From Aquirhabdus parva (GTDB lineage Bacteria; Pseudomonadota; Gammaproteobacteria; Pseudomonadales; Moraxellaceae): a stretch of 64,000 nucleotides of DNA. Of the stretch, positions 43,849 through 60,746 are shown one piece after another (position 1 is the stretch's first letter; each line of letters begins with the position of its first letter). The stretch spans positions 3,392,207 through 3,456,206 of the forward strand of contig NZ_CP031222.1 in assembly GCF_003351745.1 (NCBI RefSeq), given 5' to 3'. A program made the translations under genes and the position numbers. A model generated the notes under the pieces. That model worked only from the letters and a program-made list of their open reading frames with translations. It did not search any database and was not told the DNA's origin.

Positions 43849-45039
43849 TCATAAACTCCGGCTTGGCTTACGTTTCCTGTGCCACATCAGCCAGCCCGTC
43901 ACCGCAAAGAACAGCGGCATCAGTCCAAACAGACTAATAAAGACGCGTCCCAATAGCCCAAAAGCCTCGCCTGAATGCAGTGGAAACATCCAGCTTAAAA
44001 ACACATCTCCAGAGGTACCCCTTAAAGGATCACGTACCTGCAAGATCTGTCCGCTATATGCGTCGATCTTGATCCGTGTTGCGCCATCATTTTCTTGAAT
44101 CTCAGTGGGTTGCCGCGCACGAATCTCATACGGATCGCTGCTTTTTTTGGGGAGGACAATACGCGAGAGACGTGCAGTCGGATATCGGTCTTGAGCGTAC
44201 TGCATGGCTTCAGCAACCGTCAACATGGCGGCCTCTTTGCTCACAGGGTAATTGGTCACTTTGTCATTTTTCGATACCGTCATGACGCGCTTCACTACAG
44301 GTAGCGTCCAATCTGGTTGATTGAAATACAACCCAGAGAAAGCTAGGACAATCAGTACAGGGGCGGCAAAAAAACCCAGAACCCGATGCGCTGAAACCTG
44401 TAAACGCGCCATGGACCCCGCATAATGAATTCGAAACGCGGCACATAGTGCACTGAATTCGGCACGCGGAAACCACAATATGAGACCCGTGATCGCCATG
44501 ATCAAGAATGCACAGGCGGTTATCCCACTGATGGTTTTGCCCGTTATCCCAAGCAAGAGATAGCGATGTAAATAAAAGATCGTCGGCATCAGTTGAGTCT
44601 TGGATAGACCTGCCTGCCCCCATAACCGCTCACCTTTGATCTCGTCGGTCTTGGGGTCAATCATGACTTGCCGAGTGACATCCGAACGAAAAAGATCGGA
44701 CGTGCCTTTTTCTGTGGGGATTTTATATGACACCACATAGACATCATCGGCTGTCTCGGGCAGTGTCAACTGACTCGGTTTGCCATAGCTCGGTTGCTGA
44801 CTTAATGTGTCAATGATCTGCTGCACCCGCTGCGGCGTAACCCGAAAAGGCAGGGTTGACTCATCCCCCGACTCGGGTTGTGATGCCACCAACAACTCAG
44901 GATTCAGTGCACGATCCAGCTCTGGCAGCCACGCGATCACGGTACCGGTCAGGCCTAGGAGCACAAAAATAACGCCAAAGACCAGCGCAATCGAAAGATG
45001 CAGCGTCTTAAATAGACGTCGAACCCTACCTTTGATCAT
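43849..45039 (-). CDS. PepSY-associated membrane protein (iron-siderophore reductase type)
   Basis: A 396-residue inner-membrane protein with four helices: near residues 15-37, 148-170, 195-225 and 350-385, with PepSY-like periplasmic sections. Conserved His in FKTLHLSIALV and YLHRYLLLG and in SAHRVLGFF likely bind haem, as in PiuB/FsqB-like reductases. Such proteins reduce ferric siderophores in the periplasm. It is last in the siderophore operon, 135 bases after the TonB receptor gene. Confidence 0.8.
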   Translation of the reverse strand: MIKGRVRRLFKTLHLSIALVFGVIFVLLGLTGTVIAWLPELDRALNPELLVASQPESGDESTLPFRVTPQRVQQIIDTLSQQPSYGKPSQLTLPETADDVYVVSYKIPTEKGTSDLFRSDVTRQVMIDPKTDEIKGERLWGQAGLSKTQLMPTIFYLHRYLLLGITGKTISGITACAFLIMAITGLILWFPRAEFSALCAAFRIHYAGSMARLQVSAHRVLGFFAAPVLIVLAFSGLYFNQPDWTLPVVKRVMTVSKNDKVTNYPVSKEAAMLTVAEAMQYAQDRYPTARLSRIVLPKKSSDPYEIRARQPTEIQENDGATRIKIDAYSGQILQVRDPLRGTSGDVFLSWMFPLHSGEAFGLLGRVFISLFGLMPLFFAVTGWLMWHRKRKPSRSL

Positions 45040-45174
45040 CGTAGTTTACTCATCATTGCCATCACTCGCCCTGTTAATCCGCCCGTAGAATCAAGAACAT
45101 CTCGATGCCAAAAATCCACTCCAACCTGATAATCGGGCTGAAATGGATTTTCTCGTTGGCATAAAGCACGCTAT

Positions 45175-47304
45175 TTAAAAACGATAACGTGCGCCTACTG
45201 TCAGTGTCACCGGTGCGCCGGGCAGATTATAGTCATTCGCCCCGCTATGTCCGGCAACAAAATATTTGCGATTCAGCACATTTTGTAGTGTTGCATTGAT
45301 ATCAAACTTCGCCGATTCATAACCCGCTCCCAGATTCATCACGCCATAACCGGGCAATGTGGTCAGATCATCCGCTGAAGCAAAGCGGGACGACTCTGCC
45401 TTAGCCCCAGCCGCAACATAGAATCCATCATCCAGTTTATGTTTGATCCAGAGATTAAAACTGTTACGCGGAGTCAACGAGGCTTCATTGCCATTGAATG
45501 ATTTACCAGTCGAAGTCTTGGCCGTTGAGCTTAAGATTTCGCTTTTCATATAAGAATAACCCGCAAGGACATCCCACTGCGGCGCGATCTTACCAGTAAA
45601 CGATAACTCCAGCCCACGGGTGCGCTGCTCACCAATTGGCACAGCAAGCAGTGGATTCAGCGGGTCTTGATTCTGGATATTGGTTTGTGACATCTCAAAC
45701 AGGGATGTCGTCAGACTGGCTTGCTGAGTCAGATCCCACTTCACCCCGACTTCTTTGTTCTTGGTTTCGGTCGGTTTAAGCTGATCACTGTTGGCATAGA
45801 AGGTAAAGGCATCGGCTATCGGCTGATACGATTTGCTGTAGGACGCATAGAGCGATACCGCCTCAATCGGCTGATACACCAAACCAATGCGCGGTGAGAC
45901 CGTGTTATCGGTGCGATCCAAATCAAGGTTAGCTTTGGTACGATCATCACGATTCTGCTCAATGCGATCAAAACGTGCCCCAGCAAGCAGCTTCCATTCA
46001 GGTGTGATCGTTACGAAGTCCTGTAAATAGAGACCATAGATATCAAACTGGCTCTTATTGTCATTACTGGCTGGCGTATTGTGCGGAATCGGTGGTAGAT
46101 CGACCAGTACGGGCGCAAATAGGTTATAGGTCGCCACATTTTTAACCGTGTACAATCGCTCGCTCTTGTCTTGATGCCCCACTTCAAGCCCATACAAAAT
46201 CTCATGTTTGACACTGCCCCAATTCAAAATCTGTGACAGTTCATTTTGCAAGTACACGCCTTTCTCATCACGCACACGTTTGGTTTCGGCAATTGCGACC
46301 TTAGCGGTTTTTTCATTCACCGTTGGGGTGGTGTAGTTGCGATCCAGTGAATAGTCATACGCACGCAATACCGAATGCAATTTAAGTGTATCGCTAAACC
46401 GATGATCTACCGTAATCGCGCTGCTCAGCACTTCGGATTCGACATAGGCGCGATCCCGACCATTGGCTGCACCGTAGTAAGTTTTGATTGGGACATCGAC
46501 AGGACGACCGTGATAACTTGGCACACCTTGATCCGCCAAGCGTTTATCATGCAAATAATCGGCTTGCACCATGACTGTAGTATCGGGTGAAATCTTGAAC
46601 AGTGCTGATGGCGCAATGGCTTGACGATCTAAGAAATAACCATCCCGAAAGCTGGATGAACTTTCCACCGCGCCAGTCAAGCGAAACTGCATGTCTTTAT
46701 CACTGGTGGTCGTACCCAAATCAAACTCACCACGTTTTTGCCCTCGTGAACCAAACGTCACACCGACCTCCTCGACTGGATTGGCACTCGGTTTCTTGGT
46801 AACACGATTGACAATCCCACCTGCAGAACCACGACCATAGACCACTGCTGCAGGGCCTTTCAGGACTTCAATCTGTTCGATATTGGATAGATCACGAAAA
46901 TAGAGTGCATCATCACGCACGCCATCAACAAACTGATCCGTGATGTTTAAGAACCCCCGAATCACCGTCTGATCACGCTGACCATCTCCCACACTGGCAC
47001 TCAAACCCGGCACATTGATCAAGGCATCTTGCACAGATGCCGCGTTCTGATCGCGCATCACCGTTTTATTCACCACACTCACGGTTTGCGGTACGTCATG
47101 CAGCTGTGCTGCGGTCTTGGTTGCTGTGCTTGAGACTTTGACCTGATAGCTGGGCTCTGCTTTCTTAGCATTGACCACAATCGTGGGCAAGCTGGATTCC
47201 GTAGGCGTGGATGATGTCTCTGCCATGGCAGGAGATGCAAACACTGCACAAGAAACGGCCATCATCGGTAGAGAGTGTGTGGTAAGTATACGGATCACGT
47301 TCAT
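45175..47304 (-). CDS. TonB-dependent siderophore receptor
   Basis: Outer-membrane receptor of about 709 residues of the siderophore (FhuA/FecA) class. A signal peptide ends at ASPAMAET. The plug shows LPTIVVNAKKAEPS and the siderophore-type stretch GRGSAGGIVNRVTKKPS, and the barrel ends in Phe (ARYRF). It follows the MFS exporter gene by 40 bases. Ligand: probably the siderophore made by the NIS synthetase of this locus. The ATG at 47304 is used, 8 residues after the longest possible start. Confidence 0.88.
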   Translation of the reverse strand: MNVIRILTTHSLPMMAVSCAVFASPAMAETSSTPTESSLPTIVVNAKKAEPSYQVKVSSTATKTAAQLHDVPQTVSVVNKTVMRDQNAASVQDALINVPGLSASVGDGQRDQTVIRGFLNITDQFVDGVRDDALYFRDLSNIEQIEVLKGPAAVVYGRGSAGGIVNRVTKKPSANPVEEVGVTFGSRGQKRGEFDLGTTTSDKDMQFRLTGAVESSSSFRDGYFLDRQAIAPSALFKISPDTTVMVQADYLHDKRLADQGVPSYHGRPVDVPIKTYYGAANGRDRAYVESEVLSSAITVDHRFSDTLKLHSVLRAYDYSLDRNYTTPTVNEKTAKVAIAETKRVRDEKGVYLQNELSQILNWGSVKHEILYGLEVGHQDKSERLYTVKNVATYNLFAPVLVDLPPIPHNTPASNDNKSQFDIYGLYLQDFVTITPEWKLLAGARFDRIEQNRDDRTKANLDLDRTDNTVSPRIGLVYQPIEAVSLYASYSKSYQPIADAFTFYANSDQLKPTETKNKEVGVKWDLTQQASLTTSLFEMSQTNIQNQDPLNPLLAVPIGEQRTRGLELSFTGKIAPQWDVLAGYSYMKSEILSSTAKTSTGKSFNGNEASLTPRNSFNLWIKHKLDDGFYVAAGAKAESSRFASADDLTTLPGYGVMNLGAGYESAKFDINATLQNVLNRKYFVAGHSGANDYNLPGAPVTLTVGARYRF

Positions 47305-47344
47305 AGTATTAAAAAGCTCAAGAATCAAAAATTTAAATATAAAG

Positions 47345-48583
47345 TTACGACGGGTTGGTTAACGATGCCGAGGGAGTCGGACTAAACACTTGTGGCTTTA
47401 AACGCAACAGGCGAATCCCCAGCGCAGCAACGCCATAGGTCACCACCACAGGCCAAAATAAATAAGCGACAGGAAGCCAAATCATGGTGACTGCGCCAAC
47501 TCCTATCCCGATCAGCGCGCCGGCTTTGGCAGCACTATTACCTAAGCCCAACACATGACCTTGCTGATGATCTGCTGCAGCTTTGGATAACAAGCTATAA
47601 AACACGGGGAGCAACGCACCGAGGCAAATCCCCCATACCACGCGCGCCACAATAAAAATGACGATGTTGCTGCTCATCGCTTGTGCCATCACCACCAGTA
47701 CGCAAACCCATGTGATCCACTCCACTTGCTGGAGGACTTGCGACTGACTCTGATGGGCAAAGCGTTTACCCCAGATCGGCGCAGCCACACATAGCCCTAC
47801 TGCAACAGCGCCATAGCACAACCCCACGACGGTTGCGCTGGCATGTAGCGTTTGCTCGGCAAAAATGCCAAAGAAGGCTTGCGGCATCATCTTGCCCGCT
47901 TGAACCAGCACGATGCCGAGCAATAACCCAAAGAACGCCGCGAACGGCAGTGACACCTCCGTAGTCGCCTCTGACGATTTAGATACTTTTTTCACCTGCG
48001 TTGCAGGCAGCAGCCACCACGCTGCCAGAGCACAGCCAAAGCAGATCAATGCGGCAATGAGGTTGAGCCACGCAAAGCTATAAAAATCAAAGATAATGCC
48101 ACCAAGTAAGGGACCAATCATCGAACCCATCGCTGTTGCCACCTGAAGCTTGGCCATGAGCGCTGAGCGCCCCTCGCGATTGACCAGCGTCGTACCGTAG
48201 GCTTGTGATGCGGCAATAAACCCCGCCAAGCCACCTTGAACTAAACGCATTACTAAAATACTGAAGGTATCGTTCAACCATGCGATACACAGCTGCGTCA
48301 GCGCCAGTGCAAATAGCGCTCGCAGCAGCATCGGTTTGTGTCCATAGCGATCTCCGAGTCGTCCCCAAAGTGGCGTGAAGCACATTGCCATCACCATTGG
48401 GCCTGCATAAGCAACCCCACTGGCAATGGCCAGCCAATGTGCTGATAGTTGCCCCGTCGCCTTGAAATGCAACGCCCAAAAAGGCGCACTCATCTCCATT
48501 GCACCCATGGAGAGCATCTGAACAATAAATAGCCACAGCAATGGATGGCGCACATTTTTCCCATGCAAACGACGCTCAGTCAC
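47345..48583 (-). CDS. MFS siderophore exporter
   Basis: Twelve-helix major facilitator of 412 residues. The conserved loop after helix 2 reads PLWGRLGDRYGHKPMLL. It starts 1 base after the NIS synthetase stop, so the two genes are tightly coupled. In LbtAB of Legionella and FslAB of Francisella, a single NIS synthetase is paired with an MFS protein that exports the siderophore. Export of the siderophore made here is therefore the best inference. Confidence 0.82.
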   Translation of the reverse strand: MTERRLHGKNVRHPLLWLFIVQMLSMGAMEMSAPFWALHFKATGQLSAHWLAIASGVAYAGPMVMAMCFTPLWGRLGDRYGHKPMLLRALFALALTQLCIAWLNDTFSILVMRLVQGGLAGFIAASQAYGTTLVNREGRSALMAKLQVATAMGSMIGPLLGGIIFDFYSFAWLNLIAALICFGCALAAWWLLPATQVKKVSKSSEATTEVSLPFAAFFGLLLGIVLVQAGKMMPQAFFGIFAEQTLHASATVVGLCYGAVAVGLCVAAPIWGKRFAHQSQSQVLQQVEWITWVCVLVVMAQAMSSNIVIFIVARVVWGICLGALLPVFYSLLSKAAADHQQGHVLGLGNSAAKAGALIGIGVGAVTMIWLPVAYLFWPVVVTYGVAALGIRLLRLKPQVFSPTPSASLTNPS

Positions 48584-48584
48584 A

Positions 48585-50450
48585 TCAGATCGCCTTCAAA
48601 GGATTCGGCATCTGACCATGCACATCCTCCTGCGTATTGGACAAGCGCATGCGTAAGAACGCTTTGGCAGGCCAAGGTAACTCCAAAAACGCCTCACGCT
48701 CGGCCTCCCACCGTTCTGGGTTAGTACGTGGCCGCAGGGCATCAAAAACTTGAATGGTTTGCTCGCGCAGTACCGTCCAGAAGATCAGTGCCGATTGTTG
48801 TGTGGTCCGTGCCAGAAGCAGCGCCATCTCACTCAAATGACAGAGCATGACTGCATGTAAAATCTTGTCGCGTACGGGCATGTGATCGTCATACACGGTA
48901 TGACCTGCACGGAAAGGATCAAGCGTGTACTGCATCTTCTCAAGCGTTGAGGCATGCACACGGACATCCCCAAAATCGCGAGCCAGCAAACACACCGGAC
49001 GGTAGGCCTGATCAACCAGCATGAAACTGTTTTGTTGATGTGCCTCAAAGGCGATACCATAAATGAGGTAGGCACTTAAAGTCGCAGTCAACACGGTCTG
49101 GGTATATTGCTGGAAAAACTCCGCCGCCGCAGTGTCATGGCCGCCATAACCCAATGCAACCAACTCGGCAATCAAAGGACGTTTGGCATAGGCAGAACTG
49201 GAAAATAACGCACCAACAGGCAGTGGAAACAGTGCATCGGTGCGTTTGTTCAGGGGATTTTGACGATACAAGACGGCCAGATGACGTGAACGGTTATCAT
49301 CTTGGTTCGGATCCAGATAATGGACTCCAACATCTTCCCCGACGATTTCAAGACGCTGACCAAAACCCTGCTCTACCGCCAAAATACGGCGTAACAACTG
49401 AGTAATGCGCGGCCCCATCACGGCTGATTTTGGCGAGACAGTACGCTCGACACTGGTCAATCGCAACGACACCGGCAACTTCATATGCGGCATAGCGTCT
49501 GAATGCTCTGGAACCACTGTCCTAAACGACATGGTCGGTGACGCAGGAATAGAGACATTGTCCAGAAGCACGAGCGTGCCTTGGGCAATCTCAGCAGCAA
49601 ACTCATCATCGATAAATCGCTCTGCCTGATAAGGATGTATCGGCAAAGGCACCCAGTCATCAGGGGCGTATCCTCTTTGGGTCAGAGCCTCTTGCCAATG
49701 GGCAAAAGCATTTGGAAACTGGCGTGCAAACCAAACGCTATACGATATATCAGAAGAGGGATCCGTCGCTTCTAACTGTAATTCTGCATGAACCTGGTCT
49801 TTTTTGATTGCAGCAATCGTAATCTTCAGCTCCGCCTGAAACTCAGGGGACATCCGCATCACATCCACCGCACTCAAACCCAGTTTGGTCTTGTATGTGG
49901 GGTGCCAGGGATGACCTATCGTGCCCCACTGCTCTAGTGTCAGCAGTGGATTAGCCAAGTTACTGGTGCGTAAAAACGTCAGGAAATAGCGATGATCACC
50001 CCGGCTGCGCAAGAGCTCCCGACCCCACTTTTCACGATAGGTCAGGCATAAAGCATCATTATCAATGCTGTTTTCCAGTTCCAGACACAGACGCTCAAGA
50101 TCTGCCAAACTGACGGGCATGGGCAATGCATCGGCAACAGCGCGCAGGAGTGCTGAAGGGGTTTTAATCGGATAAGGTCGATTGCCCGTTTTATGACAGG
50201 TGATGCCACCAACCAGTTGGCAACTGCCGATGCGACCAAGCTCTAAGCCCTCAAAGCGCAGTAATGTTTTTTGGCTCCAGAGCGGCAACCATGCGATAGA
50301 ACCTTCGACCACCAAGTGACTGGCATCGAGTAACTTCTCACGAAATAAGGCTTGAAGGGTGCGTACCAAACCTTGCTGACAGGCTTGTGCATACTGTGCA
50401 TCCGTACTTGATATCGCTGTGACAGTAGGGTGCAATTGCTGCATGTCCAT
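48585..50450 (-). CDS. NIS siderophore synthetase (IucA/IucC family)
   Basis: ATP-dependent condensing enzyme of 621 residues that links a carboxylic acid (often citrate) to an amine or alcohol. Motifs include GHPWHPTYKTKLGL (ATP binding), HPYQAERFI, SPTMSFRTVVP and AHQQNSFMLVDQ, all typical of IucA/IucC proteins. Only one such gene is present in this window, as in rhizoferrin systems; there is no hydroxylase or decarboxylase beside it. A strong Fur box lies 58 bases before the start. It is the first gene of the operon synthetase, exporter, receptor, reductase. Confidence 0.92.
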   Translation of the reverse strand: MDMQQLHPTVTAISSTDAQYAQACQQGLVRTLQALFREKLLDASHLVVEGSIAWLPLWSQKTLLRFEGLELGRIGSCQLVGGITCHKTGNRPYPIKTPSALLRAVADALPMPVSLADLERLCLELENSIDNDALCLTYREKWGRELLRSRGDHRYFLTFLRTSNLANPLLTLEQWGTIGHPWHPTYKTKLGLSAVDVMRMSPEFQAELKITIAAIKKDQVHAELQLEATDPSSDISYSVWFARQFPNAFAHWQEALTQRGYAPDDWVPLPIHPYQAERFIDDEFAAEIAQGTLVLLDNVSIPASPTMSFRTVVPEHSDAMPHMKLPVSLRLTSVERTVSPKSAVMGPRITQLLRRILAVEQGFGQRLEIVGEDVGVHYLDPNQDDNRSRHLAVLYRQNPLNKRTDALFPLPVGALFSSSAYAKRPLIAELVALGYGGHDTAAAEFFQQYTQTVLTATLSAYLIYGIAFEAHQQNSFMLVDQAYRPVCLLARDFGDVRVHASTLEKMQYTLDPFRAGHTVYDDHMPVRDKILHAVMLCHLSEMALLLARTTQQSALIFWTVLREQTIQVFDALRPRTNPERWEAEREAFLELPWPAKAFLRMRLSNTQEDVHGQMPNPLKAI

Positions 50451-51521: not shown

Positions 51522-51785
51522 GACGCCTCCTTACACGCGTGCAGATCGAATACTTCTCACCTCTATATAAGCAAACTTCAAACCAGATGGTTAAATATTT
51601 ACCAAACTACATCAGATTGATTCTTTGCTATTCACATCGCCACCTCACTGCCATCAATGTGGAAAAATCTGGCGTATTATTTTTTACTTTTTCCCACCAT
51701 CTATGCTTGGGATAAGTCTTCCTCGTCATAGTGCAACACATCATGTTCATCTCGATTGGCATCGCGTTTGGGATTTCTAAAAATA

Positions 51786-52559
51786 ATGCACACCTCACTT
51801 ATCGTTCCACCTTCTCCTTTGCTCAATAAGGTTCCGGAAGTCACACTCTTCTTCTGGATTATCAAAGTCATGTCTACAACAGTTGGGGAAACTGCTGCGG
51901 ATTTTTTGATTTTCAATTTGAAATTTGGCCTCACCATCACCTCACTGCTGATGGGTGGTTTACTGTTGATTGTCCTATGGATTCAGCTCAAATCCCGTCA
52001 GTACACCCCTTGGAAGTATTGGCTTGCTGTGGTCTCGATCAGCATCTTTGGGACATTGCTGACGGATAATCTGAGCGACCATTTTGGCGTGCCTTTAATC
52101 CTAACAACCAGCCTGTTTACAATCGCTCTCATCATCACTTTTGTCCTATGGTATCGTTCAGAGCACACGCTCTCGATCCAGAGTATTCATACTCGACGGC
52201 GTGAAATACTGTATTGGATTGCCATTTTATTCACCTTTGCACTGGGTACTGCGGCTGGTGATCTGGTGGCCGAAGGCTTTAGACTAGGTTATCTGACATC
52301 AGGACTCATCTTTGGATCACTGATCGGAGTCATTGCCCTTCTGTATTATGTTTTCCAGCGCAATGCCATCGCATCATTTTGGGTAGCCTATATATTGACT
52401 CGTCCCTTTGGTGCATCATGGGGGGACTACCTTTCCCAGCCAGTCGGTAGCGGTGGACTGGGCTTAGGCACGTTTGGAACCAGTACGTTGTTCCTTGTTG
52501 TCATCGTGGGGTTAGTGAGTTATTTGAGCATCAGCCATCAGAAATGGATCTCGCAATGA
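51786..52559 (+). CDS. COG4705-type multi-helix membrane protein
   Basis: A 257-residue protein with about seven helices. The repeat-like blocks KVPEVTLFFWIIKVMSTTVG then ETAADFLIFNL and GTAAGDLVAEGFRLGYLTSG mark the COG4705 family of uncharacterised membrane-anchored proteins. It is followed 23 bases later by a response regulator and its kinase, so these three form an operon and it may be the sensor partner or effector of that system. The start at 51786 is based on the common family N-terminus; the frame is open to 51756. Confidence 0.7.
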   Translation: MHTSLIVPPSPLLNKVPEVTLFFWIIKVMSTTVGETAADFLIFNLKFGLTITSLLMGGLLLIVLWIQLKSRQYTPWKYWLAVVSISIFGTLLTDNLSDHFGVPLILTTSLFTIALIITFVLWYRSEHTLSIQSIHTRRREILYWIAILFTFALGTAAGDLVAEGFRLGYLTSGLIFGSLIGVIALLYYVFQRNAIASFWVAYILTRPFGASWGDYLSQPVGSGGLGLGTFGTSTLFLVVIVGLVSYLSISHQKWISQ

Positions 52560-52582: not shown

Positions 52583-53245
52583 ATGCGCGTATTACTCGTC
52601 GAAGATGACAAGATGATCGGGGAAGCCATTGAGCAATCTCTCAAAGATGCCACCTATGCCGTCGATTGGGTACGTGATGGCAACACCGCCCTGACAAGCC
52701 TGGGATGCCAGCACTATGATGTCGTACTTCTTGATTTAGGACTACCCAAGAAAGATGGCTTAAGCGTCTTACGCAGCATCCGATCAGCAGGCAATGATGT
52801 TGCCGTATTAATCATTACCGCACGGGATGCCCTAGATGATCGCATACTGGGTTTAGATGCTGGTGCAGATGATTATCTGCTCAAAAGCTTTGAAATGGCT
52901 GAACTTCTAGCACGGATGCGCGCCGTAATCCGGCGCAAAGGCGGACTTGCCGCACCCGTACTCAGTAATGGCGTGATGTCATTAGATCCCTCGACACACG
53001 AGGTTAATCTAGCGGGAGAAACTACGCGACTGTCCAAACGTGAATTTGCCTTGCTCCATGCCCTCATGATCCGCCCAGGCGCAATCTTATCTCGCTCGGA
53101 TATCGAAGACCGCATTTATGGCTGGAATGAAGAAGTAGAAAGTAATGCGGTGGAATTTTTGATCCACGCATTGCGTAAAAAGCTAGGCAGTCATGCTATC
53201 AAAAATGTTCGAGGTGTGGGATGGATGGTGCCCCAAGAAAAATAA
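52583..53245 (+). CDS. OmpR-family response regulator with altered Lys-Pro motif
   Basis: A 220-residue regulator. The receiver has DD near the N-terminus (VEDDKMIG), the phospho-acceptor in VVLLDLGLPKKDG, and IITARDALDDRI. The conserved Lys-Pro at the end of strand 5 is Lys-Ser here: YLLKSFEMAELLA. The winged helix ends with KNVRGVGWMV. It belongs to the QseB/PmrA-like group. The sensor kinase gene overlaps it by 25 bases. Signal unknown; the COG4705 protein upstream may be involved. Confidence 0.85.
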   Translation: MRVLLVEDDKMIGEAIEQSLKDATYAVDWVRDGNTALTSLGCQHYDVVLLDLGLPKKDGLSVLRSIRSAGNDVAVLIITARDALDDRILGLDAGADDYLLKSFEMAELLARMRAVIRRKGGLAAPVLSNGVMSLDPSTHEVNLAGETTRLSKREFALLHALMIRPGAILSRSDIEDRIYGWNEEVESNAVEFLIHALRKKLGSHAIKNVRGVGWMVPQEK

Positions 53246-54582
53246 GACAATCGCTGCAATTTAAGCTGTCCATGCGTTTATCCGTGGTCATTCTACTGAC
53301 CGCTTTAATCGCCGGAATTCTGTCTTTTGTTTCAGCTTTTCGCGAAGCCAATGAACTGCAAGACGATCAGCTTAAGCAAGTGGCTGAGCTCATCAATCAT
53401 CATCACTTTTCGCTCTCCGTGACTGACGCCCAAGATGGTGTGCCCGATATCGACCCTGAGTCACGCGTCGTAGTGCAAGTCGTGCCGACCCGCCAACCCA
53501 CTCGTCCCTATGATGCAGGCGCACTCGCTCTTCCACTGAATCTGCCCGATGGACTGCAAACTGTGACAATCAATCAGGAGACATGGCGCCTCTTTGTGAG
53601 AAAGTTGGACACCGGCATCCGTGTCGCGGTCGGTCAGCAAACCATTGTCCGTGATGAGGTCGCACAAGACAGTGCCATCAGAACCTTATTACCCTTGATC
53701 ATCCTGATCCCGATTCTCGTATTGTTGGTTGCGGATCTCATTTATCAGATGTTTAAACCCCTAAAAAAACTGGCACTGAATATAGAAGATCGATCCGATA
53801 ACGATCTGGATGCTGTCAGTGAGCAAAACTTGCCGTCTGAAATACGACCTTTTGTGGTGGCGATTAATCGCTTGTTTGCCCGGGTTGCCCAATCCGTTGC
53901 CACTCAGCGACGATTCTTGGCGGATGCCGCACATGAGATGCGCTCTCCTCTCATGGCGCTGTCGTTACAGACTGACCGCTTAAGTGCCAGCGACATGTCA
54001 GAGGAAGCTCAAGTCCGCTTGGCGACGCTACGCACTGGACTACAACGCACCAAAGTATTATTGGATCAAATGCTCACGCTCGCACGTCTGCAGGAAGACA
54101 GGACGGAACGTAGAAAGTCTGTCGCCATGCAGCAGGCTTTTAGACATGTCGTTGAAGACCTGCTTCCGCTTGCAGAAGCTAAGGAGATTGATCTGGGTGT
54201 CGTGGGGAATGCCGATGCGACCCTCATTACTCAAGCGCTGGATCTACACATCATGCTCAAGAATCTGGTCGAAAATGCGATTAAATACACCCAGCATGGC
54301 GGCAAAGTTGATTTGTCGCTACAAATCAAGCCAGATCAGATTCAGTTGATTGTCGAAGACAATGGTCCGGGTATCCCGCTGGATGAACTGGAGCGGGTCT
54401 TTGATCCTTTTTATCGTGTCCTAGGTAATGATGAAATCGGATCAGGATTGGGTCTTTCGATTGTCCAAACCATCGCGAGCCGCATCGGCGCAACCATCCA
54501 TCTTGATTCATCGAATGGCATGGACGGCAGAGCCAGCGGACTGCGCGTCATCGTCAGCTTTACTGTGCCGTTGCCCGCTTAA
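53221..54582 (+). CDS. Sensor histidine kinase
   Basis: A 453-residue two-helix sensor kinase. Helix 1 is near residues 18-38 (VVILLTALIAGILSFVSA), a periplasmic domain of about 100 residues follows, and helix 2 lies near 158-175. The H-box reads FLADAAHEMRSPLMALSL, the N-box VENAIKYT and the G-box GSGLGLSIVQTI. It is the cognate partner of the response regulator. It converges with the metallophosphoesterase gene, 12 bases apart. The ligand is unknown. Confidence 0.87.
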   Translation: MDGAPRKIRQSLQFKLSMRLSVVILLTALIAGILSFVSAFREANELQDDQLKQVAELINHHHFSLSVTDAQDGVPDIDPESRVVVQVVPTRQPTRPYDAGALALPLNLPDGLQTVTINQETWRLFVRKLDTGIRVAVGQQTIVRDEVAQDSAIRTLLPLIILIPILVLLVADLIYQMFKPLKKLALNIEDRSDNDLDAVSEQNLPSEIRPFVVAINRLFARVAQSVATQRRFLADAAHEMRSPLMALSLQTDRLSASDMSEEAQVRLATLRTGLQRTKVLLDQMLTLARLQEDRTERRKSVAMQQAFRHVVEDLLPLAEAKEIDLGVVGNADATLITQALDLHIMLKNLVENAIKYTQHGGKVDLSLQIKPDQIQLIVEDNGPGIPLDELERVFDPFYRVLGNDEIGSGLGLSIVQTIASRIGATIHLDSSNGMDGRASGLRVIVSFTVPLPA

Positions 54583-54594
54583 AATCCATCACCA

Positions 54595-56064
54595 TCACTT
54601 CACCCGCGCCACATCACAAACCGAGTTCTTGCCATCAATATGGCACGTATTCACTTGTTTGCCATGGCGATCCCAAACCTTGACCAGCCATTGATTATTA
54701 TCGGTGCTGGTGCGTTCCATGGTCATAAAACCAAAACCACTCACCCATGAACTAAAGTGGTCGACCACAGCGCCCACCGCAGGTGTTGCACCGACTGGCA
54801 AGGTCTCAGGTAGCGGCACGACATCCTCTTCGGTGCCTGAGAATCCTGCGATAAACTGCGTCGGATGCGGCGTCGAAAAACTCACCTCTTGCCACAAATG
54901 GACATGACCCGATAGCATCGCATTAATGCGTGGTGGCAAGAGTAATGGGTTAATCGCCGACAATACTGATTGCAAACCCTGATTTCCGGGCAATAGCATG
55001 ACATTGCCTTGTTTATCTTTTTTCGCGGTAAAGCCCAAGATCGGATGATGATTCACCCCAATGTTGTACGCAGCATCCTGCGATAAAGTCTCCATCTGAT
55101 GGTACATGTCGCGATACTTGGTCTCACGGATGTCGCCCGCGGGAACGGGTTTACCCGCTGTATTGGCCGTATCCAACATAATCAACTGTGCGTTACCGCC
55201 GATCGGCACCGCATAAGGATCACTATAATCGCCGACATCGTCATGAGCAGCAAGGTTACAATCTCTACCGACTTGCAAGGGACGTGGATCGACGAAGCGC
55301 CACCAGCCTTGTCCAGCTCGCGCGCATGACTCATGATTACCACGCGCCATCGCCCACGGTGCGGCTTGCAACAGTGCCCGACCCGGTGTAAAGAAATCAG
55401 CATCCCACGCATCCCAACCATAGCCCCATGGACTGCCGGTACAGCCTGCATTCCCTTCTGGACAAGCGGTTTCCCGATAGAGCAAATCGCCCACATGGAT
55501 CACGAGGTCCGGATGCTGCGCAGCGGCTTGAGCAGCTACTTGAGCAAAAGGATATTGCTCAGGATCATTACAAGCCTGATAGGCATGGTCTGATTTTTTC
55601 ATGCGACAACCCGTATCGCCGATAACCACGATCCGATTGACTAATGTTTTGGGTAGCGGTAAAGCCTGGCCATTTATACTGGCTGACAACGCACCTTTAG
55701 GAATCACTTTTTCACAGGTCAAGATCGGAAAGGCGGAGGGCTTTGATTCGCTCGGATCGGAAATGGTAGGCCGCTGTGCAACCGTTTCTGGCTTTGCACG
55801 GACATCCATAGGCAATGCTTGGCCATCCACCAACAGCACGGGACACTGATCAGCATGGGTCAACGCCCGTGCAATGGGTTGGCCTTTCTCACCCAAGATC
55901 ACAAACGCAGCGACATCAGTAGATATTCCTAGCACTGTATGAGCAGAAGTTTGTGGCGTTGATCCGCAGCCCATTAGCGTCAAAGACATGGCCAAAGGCA
56001 GCATCAGCGCACGGCTAGCCACGTTGACCTGCACGGATACCAGTTTAGGCATAAACGATTTCAT
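54595..56064 (-). CDS. Lipoprotein metallophosphoesterase (calcineurin/purple acid phosphatase type)
   Basis: A 489-residue lipoprotein with lipobox SLTLMGCGS. Catalytic motifs of a two-metal phosphoesterase are all present: VVIGDTGCRM, VIHVGDLLYRE, MARGNHESCA, VNHHPILG and LSGHVHLWQ. The enzyme should cleave phosphate esters at the cell surface or in the periplasm. It is the last gene of an operon with a TonB receptor and ExbB-ExbD-TonB, behind a Pho box, so release of phosphate from organic esters is likely. GAGG lies 8 bases before the ATG at 56064. Confidence 0.87.
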   Translation of the reverse strand: MKSFMPKLVSVQVNVASRALMLPLAMSLTLMGCGSTPQTSAHTVLGISTDVAAFVILGEKGQPIARALTHADQCPVLLVDGQALPMDVRAKPETVAQRPTISDPSESKPSAFPILTCEKVIPKGALSASINGQALPLPKTLVNRIVVIGDTGCRMKKSDHAYQACNDPEQYPFAQVAAQAAAQHPDLVIHVGDLLYRETACPEGNAGCTGSPWGYGWDAWDADFFTPGRALLQAAPWAMARGNHESCARAGQGWWRFVDPRPLQVGRDCNLAAHDDVGDYSDPYAVPIGGNAQLIMLDTANTAGKPVPAGDIRETKYRDMYHQMETLSQDAAYNIGVNHHPILGFTAKKDKQGNVMLLPGNQGLQSVLSAINPLLLPPRINAMLSGHVHLWQEVSFSTPHPTQFIAGFSGTEEDVVPLPETLPVGATPAVGAVVDHFSSWVSGFGFMTMERTSTDNNQWLVKVWDRHGKQVNTCHIDGKNSVCDVARVK

Positions 56065-56109
56065 ACGTGATTCCTCGATATTCAACAGACAAACCTCTGC
56101 GGCCCGTGA

Positions 56110-56796
56110 CTACTGACAATTTAAATCAACCCACGTCTGATAGTTACGCAAGCTGCCCTTCATCTCTGCGGGTGGCTCAGGAATGCGCGCATCCAGCACC
56201 GCATGACGCGCCGCCTCATCAATCGCGGTCACATGACTACCGACCAGAATTCGAATACTGCTGGGATCGGTATTACTCAAACTAAAAGCAACCCGTACGC
56301 GCCCACTAAATTGCACCCCATCTGGACAGTGCGTTGCGGCTTGCACCGCCGCCAGCAATTTTGCCGCATAGCTACTGACCACATGTGGGTCCACGTCGCT
56401 TTTCACCACTGGAGGTGTCACTGGCGCAGGCGGCGTCGGCTCGGTTGCTGCGGTTGGTGTTGCTACTGGTGTGGGTAGCGCTTTTTCTTCTGCAGGGATC
56501 GGCTTGGGCGGCGTTGGCTGAACAGGTTTCGGCTCTACCTTTTGCTTCACCAGTTTTGGCGGGTCAAGTGGCTTGGGTTTGGGCTTCGGCGGTTCGACTT
56601 TGGGTTTGATCTCAGGCTTTACTTCCGGTTTCACCTCTGGGGTGGTCTCCGTCAGTGTGATCATCGCCTCCGACTTCACGTGTTCATAGCTGACATGATT
56701 GACACCATAAATCACCACCGCCGCGATGAGTCCGACCTCGATCAACAGCGCAAAGCCAAACGCCTGCACAGACGGATTTTTGAAATCAACCTTCAT
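56110..56796 (-). CDS. tonB: TonB energy transducer
   Basis: A 228-residue protein with an N-terminal membrane helix (residues 12-30, AFGFALLIEVGLIAAVVIY), a periplasmic Pro/Lys-rich spacer with repeats such as EVKPEVKPEIKP and VEPPKPKPKP, and a small C-terminal domain of about 90 residues that should contact the receptor's TonB box. The C-terminus lacks the typical YPxxA motif in obvious form, so it is a divergent TonB. It overlaps exbD by 4 bases. Confidence 0.85.
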   Translation of the reverse strand: MKVDFKNPSVQAFGFALLIEVGLIAAVVIYGVNHVSYEHVKSEAMITLTETTPEVKPEVKPEIKPKVEPPKPKPKPLDPPKLVKQKVEPKPVQPTPPKPIPAEEKALPTPVATPTAATEPTPPAPVTPPVVKSDVDPHVVSSYAAKLLAAVQAATHCPDGVQFSGRVRVAFSLSNTDPSSIRILVGSHVTAIDEAARHAVLDARIPEPPAEMKGSLRNYQTWVDLNCQ

Positions 56797-57194
56797 GGTG
56801 CTGGCGCCGCATGGCTGGCTGAGAGTGCCACTTCGGTCGCCCCTCCCTGTTTAACCGCATCGATCACACTCATCACCGTTTGCAGAGACGCATTCTGATC
56901 ACCGGCAATGGTAACCACGGTTTTTTTGCTGTCACGGCTCTTCAGCAATGCGGTCAGTTGTGGCAAAGTCATCGTATGATTCTCAACCACGACATCCTGA
57001 TCCAGCGTGATCTCCACCAACAGCTTGGTTGGCGGAATCGTAACAGCTGTTGAACTGGTTGGCAGCTTGGTCAGATGTCCCGATGTCGGAATCATCTTCA
57101 GCGTCATCATGGCAAAAAACACCAGTAAAAACAGCATAATGTCGATCATCGGAATGATCTCAATCCGTGCCTTTTTGGTTTCAAGATAACGCAT
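56793..57194 (-). CDS. exbD: ExbD biopolymer transport protein
   Basis: A 133-residue protein with one helix near residues 14-34 (IPMIDIMLFLLVFFAMMTL) containing the Asp that carries protons, and a periplasmic domain. It is translationally coupled with tonB (ATGA overlap) and follows exbB by 2 bases. Confidence 0.9.
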   Translation of the reverse strand: MRYLETKKARIEIIPMIDIMLFLLVFFAMMTLKMIPTSGHLTKLPTSSTAVTIPPTKLLVEITLDQDVVVENHTMTLPQLTALLKSRDSKKTVVTIAGDQNASLQTVMSVIDAVKQGGATEVALSASHAAPAP

Positions 57195-57196
57195 CT

Positions 57197-57883
57197 TTAG
57201 ATTCCTACTTGCACAGGCTGAGCGTTTGAAGCAACACGAGACTCCGTCACCGCCAATTTAACAGGCGCTTGCTTCAACTGTTCATGGCGATTCACGAGCA
57301 TGATTTTGATCGTTTCAAGCTGATGTAGCACGATGCGTACACGCGTATGCAGCGCATTAAAAAATACCAAACCAATAATCGCAATAAACAAACCCGATGC
57401 CGTGGCAATTAATGCCTCAGCAATACCGCCAGTGATTTCTGGGGTACCATTCTGGATATCACCCATCACACTAAACGCATTAAACATGCCGATAATCGTG
57501 CCAAACAATCCCAGTAAAGGCGCAAGTGTAATCACCGTGTCCAATACCCAAAGCGACTTATCCAATGTCGGCACTTCATGCATCAAAGCCTCTTCCAAAT
57601 GATCGCCCAATACTTGGGAGCTGACATTAGCCGGTTCATGGCTCAGCACATTCAATAAGCGTGCTTGAGGCAATTGTTTGAGCTTGGCTGGCAAATCGTG
57701 CAACTGCTGGGAGCTAGGGTTGCTTCTTAAGAGCGCGATAATTTTCTCGCCGCCTTGCAGCATGGAAGATAGATAACGCGTCCGTTCGATGATGACGGTC
57801 AAAGCCACAAGCAGTAGGACCACCATGAGATACAGTGTGCCACCGGAATCATTCGCTAATTGGATGAGATGAGAGATATGCAT
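57197..57883 (-). CDS. exbB: ExbB/TolQ-type proton channel protein
   Basis: A 228-residue three-helix protein of the MotA/TolQ/ExbB family. The first helix (residues 19-36) is followed by a cytoplasmic loop, then two helices near residues 115-135 and 155-180 with the family signature APLLGLFGTIIGMFNAF and GIAEALIATASGLFIAI. It forms the energising complex with ExbD and TonB. The start at 57883 is used; a GTG at 57901 is also in frame. It follows the receptor gene by about 115 bases, where a hairpin lies. Confidence 0.9.
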   Translation of the reverse strand: MHISHLIQLANDSGGTLYLMVVLLLVALTVIIERTRYLSSMLQGGEKIIALLRSNPSSQQLHDLPAKLKQLPQARLLNVLSHEPANVSSQVLGDHLEEALMHEVPTLDKSLWVLDTVITLAPLLGLFGTIIGMFNAFSVMGDIQNGTPEITGGIAEALIATASGLFIAIIGLVFFNALHTRVRIVLHQLETIKIMLVNRHEQLKQAPVKLAVTESRVASNAQPVQVGI

Positions 57884-57999
57884 AAGATCACTTTTAGGCA
57901 CGAGGCCTGGTTAAAAAATAAAAAGAGAGAAGCGCGCTAAAAAACGCGACTCCTCTGAGGAGAAACTAATGGGTATCAATAATTCCAATGTCCAAAGAC

Positions 58000-60267
58000 T
58001 TAGAAGTTCTGGGTCACGGTGAAGGTAAAGCTACGTGGCGCAGTTACAGTCAACTGATCATCTGGTGATGCTGTAAATGCGCTGGTCTTGGTTGGCGCAT
58101 TGGCAGGAGATACACCCACGACATTCTGTTGGCTGAACAAGTTATTGATCGCAAACTGGAACTTGGTTGATAGCGATGGATGAGCAGAGCCCCATGGCAT
58201 GGTGTAGTTCGCAGTGACATTCGCCACGTTATAGGACTGAATCTTGACCGCTTCTGGAATAGCGCCATTTTGATTCCACATTGAACCAATGCGTTTATCT
58301 GTGATGCCAACATTCCAGTTGCCTTGGGCATAGTTAATGCCCAACGCTTCAGTATCGGTCGGGGCTTGAGCCGCTGACTGATCTTTCAGCACGCCGCTGT
58401 TGTACTTGTTGGTGCCGTAGGTGGCGTTCAAGTAGAGACTGATGCCATTGCCCAGCAGAATATTACTTTCCGCTTCGATCCCTTGTGCAGTTGATGAACC
58501 CGCTGAATAGTAGTTGGTTTCGCCAGACTTTGGATCAAAAGACGAGGTATATGCATTGTCAAAACTGACATGGTAGATATCCACATCCAAGGTATAGCGA
58601 TCTGATTTCCATACCGTCCCGATTTGAGCAGTTTTGCTTAAGGTAGGCTTTGGATTAGTCAGGACTTTAGAGCCCGTCACATCGAATACACTCGATAGCG
58701 GGATGATATCGCCATAGGCATACTGCGCATACACCGACCAGTTTTTGTCCAGTAGATAATGCACATCAATCGATGGTTGCCAATCGCTATAGGTCGCTGA
58801 CGTTTTGATATACGGCAGACCACCCAAGTTGCCTTGAATCTTGCCCGGATACTGAGTGAAATCCTGATCGTAGTGCGCATATTTCACACCCGGTGTCATT
58901 TTCAAAGCATCTGTGACATTGAATGCGTATTCCACATACGGTTGTAGAATTTTGGTCGTAAAGGCTTGATCAAACTTCTGTGGGAAGGTATCCACCAGCG
59001 TCACAGGATTCGATGGAATCTGATGACGGTTGGTATCCGCTTGTTCTGCCCACAGGCCTAGACGCAAGGTGCCGTAACGCGAATCTTGACTCACACGCAG
59101 GATATCGCCAAAGGTGTGATACGCGTTTAACTTATCGATCGCGCTGGTTGGACCAATCGCGTTTTTAGTACCGGGCAACGCACTATCATAGTATTGGGTA
59201 TTATGATAATCATAGCCGTACAGTTTGTTGTCCAGCTTCCAGCCGGCGCCCAGATCAGAGACCAAACCTAAATATTCAAAGTCAGTATGAACGCGGTAGA
59301 AGTTATAGCCAACATAGTTCGGCTGACTAGGATCATCGACAAGATAGTAGTTATCGCCAAACTTATCCAACTGTGAGCGTGTGGGTGAACCATTCGCGGT
59401 ATTGGCTTTGACTTCTTCGGTTGTACCGAACAAGGTCAGAATGGTGTTTTCAGTCAGTGCGTATTGGTACTTTGCAGCTAGATTCTGACGTTGCTGGTCG
59501 TTCTGGGTCTCATAGCCATTGGAGTTCATCTGGCTGGCATTGATCATCAAGTTAGATGAACCATCAGGACCAAAGTTACCCGTATCGACTTTCGCGCCAA
59601 ACAAACGGGTATTCCATGTGCCATACGATGCGGTGACACTGCCACTTGGATCAGGCGTCAAATCGTTGGACAGTAAATTGATTGAACCGCCAAAGTTGGC
59701 AGGTCCAAGTGTTGATGCACGGCCCGGGCTACGGTCAACAACCGCACCGCCGATAATCTGACCGGGAAAGAAAACCCATGAGTGGTGTGTCGGCGAGTTG
59801 GTATCCTGAAATGGAATCCCATCATAGGTCATGGTGTAATTGCCGTCAGAGAAACCGCGGAAGAAGGTACTGGATTGACCCAATCCCGGACCATTAGGGC
59901 TAAAGCTAAAGGTTCCCGGCGTCATTTGAATCACTTGCGCAAAGTCAGCGTTTGGCGTCAGCATATTTTGAATATAAGACGTGCTGACTGCAGACTGTGC
60001 CGATGCGGCCTCTAATGAACCTTGTGAAATGGCTGCCTTGGCTGCGGCAGGCAAGTCTTTTTGTTTGTCGACTTGAGTCTTGCTTAAGCGGTCTGTATTC
60101 GTCGGTTGCACAGGTTGTGCAGCACGTGTTGCACTTACCGTCCCCAGATCAATTACATCTTCTGCAAACACACTGCTGCTCATCGTCGCGCATACACAAT
60201 AGGTTAAAACGGACAATGCAAATCCATTTGAAACCTTGCCACCCCGTAAATCATTCAAAATTTTCAT
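58000..60267 (-). CDS. TonB-dependent receptor, Pho-box controlled
   Basis: Outer-membrane receptor of 755 residues. A signal peptide ends near SSSVFAED. The following IDLGTVSATRAAQPV is a candidate TonB-box region, the plug shows PTHHSWVFFPGQIIGGA and GPANFGGSINLLSND, and the barrel ends in Phe (TVTQNF). It is first in an operon with its own ExbB-ExbD-TonB and a lipoprotein phosphoesterase, all on the minus strand. A PhoB-box match 68 bases upstream points to phosphate limitation as the signal. Ligand: a phosphate ester or similar compound is inference. Confidence 0.87.
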   Translation of the reverse strand: MKILNDLRGGKVSNGFALSVLTYCVCATMSSSVFAEDVIDLGTVSATRAAQPVQPTNTDRLSKTQVDKQKDLPAAAKAAISQGSLEAASAQSAVSTSYIQNMLTPNADFAQVIQMTPGTFSFSPNGPGLGQSSTFFRGFSDGNYTMTYDGIPFQDTNSPTHHSWVFFPGQIIGGAVVDRSPGRASTLGPANFGGSINLLSNDLTPDPSGSVTASYGTWNTRLFGAKVDTGNFGPDGSSNLMINASQMNSNGYETQNDQQRQNLAAKYQYALTENTILTLFGTTEEVKANTANGSPTRSQLDKFGDNYYLVDDPSQPNYVGYNFYRVHTDFEYLGLVSDLGAGWKLDNKLYGYDYHNTQYYDSALPGTKNAIGPTSAIDKLNAYHTFGDILRVSQDSRYGTLRLGLWAEQADTNRHQIPSNPVTLVDTFPQKFDQAFTTKILQPYVEYAFNVTDALKMTPGVKYAHYDQDFTQYPGKIQGNLGGLPYIKTSATYSDWQPSIDVHYLLDKNWSVYAQYAYGDIIPLSSVFDVTGSKVLTNPKPTLSKTAQIGTVWKSDRYTLDVDIYHVSFDNAYTSSFDPKSGETNYYSAGSSTAQGIEAESNILLGNGISLYLNATYGTNKYNSGVLKDQSAAQAPTDTEALGINYAQGNWNVGITDKRIGSMWNQNGAIPEAVKIQSYNVANVTANYTMPWGSAHPSLSTKFQFAINNLFSQQNVVGVSPANAPTKTSAFTASPDDQLTVTAPRSFTFTVTQNF

Positions 60268-60334
60268 CAGTTCAAACCTTATTAGTCGATCATTCGAAGA
60301 CGTGTTGTTAAGGTGGTCAAACTACAGCCAAAAT

Positions 60335-60352
60335 ATGACACCTAAATGACAT
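60335..60352 (-). promoter_or_regulatory. Pho box upstream of the TonB receptor operon
   Basis: On the minus strand, ATGTCAT-TTAG-GTGTCAT is two direct 7-mers spaced by 4 bases, matching the PhoB consensus CTGTCAT-N4-CTGTCAT at 12 of 14 defined positions. A weak -10-like TAGTTT follows about 10 bases downstream, and the start codon lies 68 bases away. Confidence 0.7.
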
Positions 60353-60746
60353 ATTAAAAATTAAATTCAATGAATTTAAATACTTAGCTGAAACTTAGCA
60401 AACAACTAATTGGTAGATGTAAACGATGGTTTTTTAAAGGGTTCTTGAAGGGAAATATCAAAGAGAATGGAGCGGCTATAAGCTGTTTTATGACACAATT
60501 CTACTTTCACGACCAAGGCTCATTTACACCTATAATAATCATTAAAACAATAAGTTAAATTATTTCTTTCAATCAATATAAAATAGATTTTAAGCCCACG
60601 CACTGATGATGCCATCAGAGAATAAAACGTAAGCTCCCTGTTGAATGATCACCAAATACAATGTAAGTTCCATTACGAAACTTATACTACTCTAGTAATC
60701 CATCGCGTGATTTAAATACCGCCATTTAACGAATCGAGCCCTCATC
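60353..60746. other. AT-rich intergenic region
   Basis: About 390 bases between the Pho box and the SRPBCC gene. A/T-rich, no ORF with a good ribosome-binding site and no repeat that I would report. Confidence 0.5.

Follow-up and report, generated by a model that had tools for sequence, protein, structure and literature searches.

A candidate PhoB-controlled TonB operon of Aquirhabdus parva with its own energiser and a predicted purple-acid-type phosphoesterase

Introduction

Links between TonB systems and phosphate acquisition have been described in several bacteria. Here we compare them with a putative scavenging operon of Aquirhabdus parva (Moraxellaceae), which encodes a TonB-dependent receptor, ExbB, ExbD, TonB and a phosphoesterase and lies in a stretch of 64,000 nucleotides (NCBI RefSeq assembly GCF_003351745.1, contig NZ_CP031222.1, positions 3,392,207 to 3,456,206; the whole stretch is called the window below, and unprefixed coordinates refer to it). 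In Flavobacterium, the PusCD proteins and phosphate utilisation system (PUS) clusters likewise link outer-membrane TonB-dependent transport to phosphatases, which are periplasmic, and are induced by phosphate depletion, according to the available part of the source (PMC8115612). The PUS clusters contain SusC/SusD pairs (in Bacteroidetes) and other phosphatases, and the term 'ExbB' is absent from the main text of that article as available, whereas the window has a lone receptor of the PqqU class, its own ExbBD-TonB set and an enzyme with the predicted fold of purple acid phosphatases (PAPs). The PUMA3 locus of Pseudomonas aeruginosa (phdA, pdtB, exbB2D2, tonB4, PA0696-0701) contributes an extra ExbBD-TonB set that is expressed via PhoB; there, the extracytoplasmic function (ECF) sigma factor VreI exerts co-control, the cell-surface signalling receptor VreA lacks a barrel, and no PAP-type enzyme is named in the accessible portion of the article (PMC4971064). 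In Sphingobium fuliginis, a complex of membrane-bound organophosphate hydrolase with ExbBD-TonB obtains phosphate, but the enzyme is a different one, a phosphotriesterase, and the accessible sections describe a protein association rather than a conserved five-gene operon (PMC7142613). As far as these partial sources go, none of the systems has all three components, a PqqU-class receptor, a private ExbBD-TonB set and a PAP-fold enzyme, in one operon, and literature searches covering open-licence PMC papers listed no article recognisable as a description of such an operon or its relatives.

We propose, with moderate confidence, that the A. parva operon specifies an insulated TonB channel that is inducible through PhoB and serves a phosphorylated anion. 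At the level of sequence, the proposal is backed by the gene order, a Pho-box match, a PAP-type active site, the class of the receptor and a variant TonB box tied to the private ExbBD-TonB set, from which we infer the induction, the ligand and the activity of the enzyme.

Gene organization and distribution of the module

All five genes of the original prediction are present as open reading frames (ORFs) at the predicted positions and in one direction, and all except TonB match Pfam models above the cut-offs. The operon and its short motifs comprise:

58000-60267, minus strand: TonB-dependent receptor gene of the PqqU/YncD-like class (Pfam Plug and barrel domains above cut-offs; profile against the PDB, AF2 model, Foldseek)
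57197-57901, minus strand: ExbB gene (PF01618, MotA_ExbB, 101.8 bits)
56793-57194, minus strand: ExbD gene (PF02472, 80.9 bits)
56110-56796, minus strand: TonB gene (divergent C-terminus, proline-rich middle)
54595-56085, minus strand: phosphoesterase gene (PF00149, Metallophos; start codon TTG at 56085 or ATG at 56064-56062)
60136-60150, minus strand: variant TonB box DLGTV, residues 40-44 of the receptor, near the likely mature N-terminus (cleavage site by eye)
60335-60352, minus strand: Pho-box-like site ATGTCATTTAGGTGTCAT, 12/14 match, ending 67 bp upstream of the receptor ATG
60321-60326, minus strand: -10-like hexamer TGTAGT (by eye), 8 nt past the Pho-box

The gaps along the genes, from receptor to phosphoesterase, are 98, 2, -4 and 24 bp, a spacing that would suit a single transcript. 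The TonB protein has no Pfam match and reaches 20.7 bits with TIGR01352, below the cut-off of 27.1; it was named from its position, its membrane anchor and its proline-rich region, and together with the receptor, ExbB and ExbD it makes up a full energy-transduction set. Outside the module, the host genome (G000; complete, 3.78 Mb) has two or more further ExbB genes, a second ExbD gene and two additional TonB-like genes (Pfam). The ten proteins scanned around the receptor include neither a SusD-type lipoprotein partner nor an ECF sigma/anti-sigma factor.

Scanning the genome_contigs collection (84,980 species) yielded 344 stretches, 301 of them encoding relatives of the phosphoesterase, of which the best 80 loci (prefix L) were kept. 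The search for the same five-gene order, which had been suggested together with the prediction, was successful in 8 of the 80 (L046, L047, L050, L051, L052, L055, L057, L119). The order is receptor-enzyme-ExbB-ExbD-TonB in L065 and L066 (L067 is cut) and enzyme-receptor-ExbB-ExbD-TonB in L111, while L080 and L123 contain the triad and the enzyme, with no receptor found. The combination of private energiser and phosphatase had been called unusual: the linkage is real, but with these eight loci and three more in reordered form it is not peculiar to this genome and recurs here and there among other proteobacteria. Altogether, a full ExbB-ExbD-TonB triad adjoins the phosphatase in 13/80 loci, not counting ten low-scoring ExbB hits (33-38 bits) in Massilia-type loci, where they are encoded some 4 kb away on the opposite strand (L058, L059, L060, L064, L071, L072, L078, L081, L092, L097), and a receptor of this PqqU/YncD-like family is linked to the phosphatase in 27/80. 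The nearest named relative is the metagenome-assembled genome 'Gammaproteobacteria bacterium REEB393', the contig of L046, which was taken to be the same contig as L039; one of the pair (L046) was dropped from the counts.

With this genome counted, the enzyme was found in 2 of the 199 family genomes and, at E <= 1e-50, in at least 4 of 398 genomes of the phylum (a lower bound, since scoring was limited to four candidates per genome). An enzyme tree of 54 sequences (53 of the 79 usable ones plus the window; L051 not included) places the window enzyme in a supported group of 15 (99/96) that is mostly betaproteobacterial and holds every five-gene locus in the tree except L119, and the module may have been gained horizontally. 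L048 has a gene for a type I phosphodiesterase in front of that for the enzyme.

The phosphoesterase

By sequence (phmmer and profile against the PDB) the phosphoesterase had no useful match, and Pfam places it in superfamily PF00149 only. Its AF2 model (predicted local distance difference test, pLDDT, 92) matched best to wheat purple acid phytase 6gja in Foldseek (E 4.4e-13, TM-score 0.52), with PhoD likewise among the matches, and VIA put kidney bean PAP first (Z 28.2, root-mean-square deviation 2.9 over 336 amino acids, N-terminal domain included). The predicted structure is that of a purple acid phosphatase with an N-terminal beta domain. The claim that all metal motifs are present is borne out by seven ligands (D157, D200, Y203, N250, H346, H394 and H396), which are invariant in 54/54 aligned sequences and which, including the charge-transfer tyrosine, we take to be the motif set of purple acid phosphatases. 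The two-domain fold and the seven ligands are common to the enzyme and the plant purple acid phosphatases and phytases (1kbp, 6gja), but the window enzyme is a bacterial lipoprotein with 11-16% identity to them in Foldseek alignments. Phosphomonoesters or phytate would plausibly fit this fold.

The lipobox of the window enzyme reads LMGC (by pattern), and a rough pattern finds a lipobox in 30 of the 54 enzymes. It was considered as a marker of the private motor and rejected, as no association was seen (8/14 with energiser, 6/13 with receptor only, 16/27 others). The genome contains a second purple-acid-type phosphoesterase gene, 45% identical (L040:8910-11752; G000:C1:1156909-1159751), which overlaps the start of a gene for an MbnH/MauG-like di-heme enzyme by 4 bp and has no upstream Pho-box at <=3 mismatches.

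The receptor, its likely ligand and the variant TonB box

A phmmer search of the single receptor against the PDB gave no useful match, and its relationships emerged from profile and fold comparisons. A profile of 25 receptors (L049, L052, L053 and L101, in which the receptor is cut by contig ends, were excluded) matched YncD (4e-34) and PqqU (5e-34), followed by FecA (1e-21), and the first Foldseek row for the AF2 model (pLDDT 79) was PqqU (E 1.1e-34, 17% identity). The nearest receptor by both methods is thus PqqU (YncD) of E. coli (PMC12124388, PMC7193533, each available in part), and the window receptor could import pyrroloquinoline quinone (PQQ) as PqqU does, the phosphatase being incidental. 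In addition to the likeness to these closest solved structures, a YncE-like propeller is encoded near the enzyme in several of the relatives, reminiscent of the location of yncE beside pqqU in E. coli. However, of the residues that form the PqqU signature for PQQ in the accessible part of PMC12124388 (Y99, R304, R365), R365 is kept, its equivalent R414 being invariant in 25/25 receptors, and R304 is lost, its equivalent being N in 18 and H in 7. The Y99 position falls in a gap of a shorter loop in all 25, with Y or F a few residues off in 24 (by eye). At two positions under weaker conservation, 13/25 receptors have K for K274 and the window receptor has E for R536. Unlike PqqU, the receptor also has a private energiser and a phosphatase. 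The genome has no match to PqqD or to TIGR03074 and matches to TIGR03075 only below the cut-off; the search did not extend to other quinoprotein families. The signature residues, two PQQ-dehydrogenase families and PqqD therefore do not support PQQ, which is an unlikely ligand, and we give the import of PQQ hardly any credence. A compact anion is the likely ligand. A paper on YncD that predates the discovery of the PQQ ligand named phosphate-bearing molecules as possible substrates, in the part of it available (PMC7193533).

The window also contains a rhizoferrin-type siderophore locus (43849-50450, minus strand), which encodes a PepSY_TM protein, a TonB-dependent receptor, a major facilitator superfamily transporter and an FslA-like synthetase of the NRPS-independent siderophore type (48585-50450; 324 bits, under the cut-off of that model). 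It lies 4 kb from the operon, and its synthetase, as well as the presence of iron receptors among the Foldseek matches, would be in line with an ordinary iron-siderophore receptor that perhaps serves this locus. We nevertheless set this explanation aside as very unlikely, because the rhizoferrin-type locus has its own receptor (45175-47328); moreover, no such synthetase stood out among the genes that recur around the relatives (no profile search for it was made), and in 27/80 loci a receptor of this family is linked to the phosphatase.

The motif D[LV]GxV is present near the mature N-terminus of 13/13 receptors with a private ExbBD-TonB set and of 0/12 without, all 12 of which have canonical-looking TonB boxes (by eye), a difference that might reflect only two independent events, since the motor label requires two changes on the receptor tree (one clade of 12 and L111). 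The script count was 12/13 (Fisher p 2.7e-6); the script missed the box of L047, whose sequence it truncated at a spurious plug motif close to the start, and the alignment gives ATDLGAV there, making 13/13. The private TonB would be expected to pair with the DLGTV box of its receptor.

The Pho-box and the control of expression

The predicted Pho-box was confirmed, with 2 mismatches in 14 positions of a pattern that we take to be the E. coli consensus. None of 100 first-order Markov sequences modelled on the receptor upstream region matched as well. The whole genome contains 36 sites at <=2 mismatches versus 9 for the reversed control pattern, so that about a quarter of such sites may be due to chance. 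Others of these sites are found upstream of phoB (132 bp before the gene), of the gene for a PitA-like transporter and of ppk1 (assigned from three Pfam domains), and a 3-mismatch site precedes the gene for a phosphocholine-specific phospholipase C; PhoB and PhoR score above the cut-offs of their models and the PitA-like protein below its own. At the -10 region, CTGTAGTTTG is present in L039 too (by eye). The hexamer TGTAGT is not among the sites listed by a promoter and terminator consensus scan, which gave 9 promoter-like sites versus 8.9 in shuffles and 9 terminator-like sites versus 6.9. A perfect direct repeat, GCTAAG-N5-GCTAAG (60383-60399, minus strand), was considered as an operator and dropped as chance: at <=1 mismatch, 10 genomic copies compare with 18 of the reversed control, two of the 10 being perfect (this one included), and three others that were examined lie in dissimilar settings, one of them within a tolQ-like gene.

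Upstream regions of 76 loci were available for comparison (16 receptor leads and 60 enzyme leads; 6 of 82 loci were dropped for insufficient upstream DNA), and the window site is joint best among them and at promoter distance. Leaving out the window and its near-duplicate L051 and including the second copy of the genome itself (L040), Pho-box-like sites at <=4 mismatches precede 29/74 lead genes versus 99/709 further genes from these loci (p 5e-7), and at <=3 mismatches 8/74 versus 19/709 (p 0.002), the upstream DNA of the 709 genes being partly coding because their starts were set mechanically. In a composition-matched Markov test, the Fisher combined p value was 6e-4 over all 76 leads, the window among them; the receptor leads (16) taken separately gave 0.0012 and the enzyme leads (60) 0.023, and the control patterns stayed between 0.87 and 1.0 in every set; all these enrichment p values are too optimistic because the loci are related. 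The best sites in the five-gene loci have 2 mismatches in the window, 3 in L119, 4 in L039, L047, L050 and L051, 5 in L057 and 6 in L055; L052 is cut and gave no value. The plausible box in the window stands, but Pho control as predicted does not hold throughout the module: among the five-gene loci, a good box is confined to the window and L119. Pho-boxes mark part of the module members, and several relatives have another direct-repeat element instead.

On the other side of the phosphoesterase gene, the window encodes:

53221-54582, plus strand: histidine kinase gene (PF00512/PF02518), a recurrent neighbour
52583-53245, plus strand: response regulator gene of the PmrA/QseB type (best models PmrA and QseB, each below its own cut-off)
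51756-52559, plus strand: DUF347 membrane protein gene (PF03988), 23 bp upstream of the response regulator gene

The kinase and phosphoesterase genes are convergent, 12 bp separating the ends of their ORFs. The original prediction had the five genes right and missed this surrounding, the two-component system being a frequent and DUF347 an occasional partner of the module. The operon could be run by the adjacent two-component system instead of PhoB, the Pho-box match being accidental, an alternative that differs from the proposed channel in regulation only. A regulator 48-56% identical to that of the window and a kinase stand beside the module in 11/80 loci, mostly directly upstream of the receptor. 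In addition, a 17-bp element, TTTMAY-N5-NWTAAG, is present upstream of 7/10 receptor leads in loci with the pair (the window among the ten), 0/64 other leads and 2/722 other genes, the second receptor gene of L057 being one of the two; this pattern was written after these promoters had been viewed, and therefore only its background rate counts as a test. Against this alternative, the element is absent upstream in the window, as well as in L079, L091, L080 and L123, and the window Pho-box is the joint best mentioned above. We regard control by the two-component system in place of PhoB as rather unlikely for the window.

A second alternative raised by the neighbours is metal handling: the receptor would import a metal complex, or the module would defend against one, the two-component system sensing the metal, DUF347 or RND pumps exporting it and the phosphatase providing phosphate for its precipitation. 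DUF347 adjoins the response regulator in the window and lies in a stretch with the enzyme in 5/80 loci (L047, L048, L050, L051, L066; 4 bp to 1.8 kb away), and the other DUF347 gene of the genome is located beside a CzcCBA-CzcD-type efflux locus (L142:1004-9669; CzcA 1512.9 bits, Cation_efflux 153 bits). For Frankia, DUF347 has been proposed to be a metal exporter acting with the phosphatase UppP, in the accessible part of PMC4531530. RND genes share the stretch of the enzyme in several loci (for example L039, L051, L068, L079, L091, L117 and L118), together with a nickel/cobalt exporter in L079, and one RND pump is recurrent (L039:13835-19523, L051:13395-18864, L068, L079, L091). However, the five recurrent RND permeases that were tested score between the CzcA model and the drug-pump models without reaching either cut-off, and no RND-like ORF is evident by eye near the window operon; the permease tested in L048 is MdtB-like. 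Pho-boxes are, in addition, enriched across the family. We consider metal handling rather unlikely.

Proposed mechanism and its standing

In the proposed PhoB-inducible channel, phosphorylated PhoB would bind at 60335-60352 under low phosphate and turn on the genes for the receptor, ExbB, ExbD, TonB and the phosphatase. The receptor would capture a compact anionic ligand that bears phosphate; this could be phytate or a different organophosphate and might be complexed with a metal. The private TonB, powered by the private ExbBD, would recognise the DLGTV box, and the ligand would be pulled into the periplasm, where the lipid-anchored PAP-type enzyme would free the phosphate. The freed phosphate could enter via an inner-membrane carrier, and a PitA-like gene is present in the genome. 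The adjacent two-component system and DUF347 would probably sense and handle something that accompanies the substrate.

Several observations have to be weighed against this proposal, in addition to the relatedness of the loci that makes the Pho-box statistics look too good. VIA places BtuB, PqqU and FecA alike (Z 34-35), and therefore the fold does not fix the ligand. In the 64-kb window, 9 Pho-box sites at <=3 mismatches compare with 7.3 expected, a second 2-mismatch site lies within the kinase gene (at 53948), and 12 of 30 genome sites that were examined fall within ORFs. The nearest relative, L039, keeps only the second half-site, with 4 mismatches at its best site: the -10 region and this half-site align with the window free of gaps, and the first half-site is lost (by eye). 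L055 (6 mismatches) and L057 (5) are without a Pho-box, and in the relatives the local regulator may outweigh PhoB. The DUF347 and RND neighbours suggest metals. Finally, no receptor of the family was found in 53/80 loci, some of them cut by contig ends, and therefore the enzyme often occurs without such a receptor.

The dedicated scavenging machine of the original prediction retains the linkage of receptor, energiser and phosphatase, a plausible Pho-box, a fitting enzyme fold and an anion-binding receptor class, while the phosphate on the ligand is something we infer from the linked enzyme and the Pho-box. A more far-reaching version, which is tentative and rather unlikely, is an orthogonal TonB circuit with its own box code and motor that imports complexes of metals with phosphate esters (for example metal phytate), equipped with a periplasmic purple-acid-type phytase, a sensor and an exporter, and rewired in this lineage from the local regulator to PhoB; the two-component system, DUF347 and, in relatives, RND pumps would serve as sensor and exporter and dispose of the metal.

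If the proposed channel exists, proteobacteria would possess a self-sufficient, motor-driven pathway for phosphorylated compounds whose size or scarcity makes porins inadequate, a counterpart of the phosphate utilisation systems of Bacteroidetes, and the PqqU/YncD/FecA branch of receptors would gain a new class of ligand. The DLGxV box and the private TonB would then be a natural test of the separation of TonB circuits inside one cell.

Other recurrent neighbours

A YncE-like beta-propeller is recurrent near the enzyme (L048:3751-4824, L050, L051, L055, L057, L068, L091, L117, L118; the propeller profile was built without L080). In L057 (1516-8251), two receptors of the family flank one regulator-kinase pair ahead of a single ExbBD-TonB-phosphatase set, and both receptors carry the 17-bp direct-repeat element.

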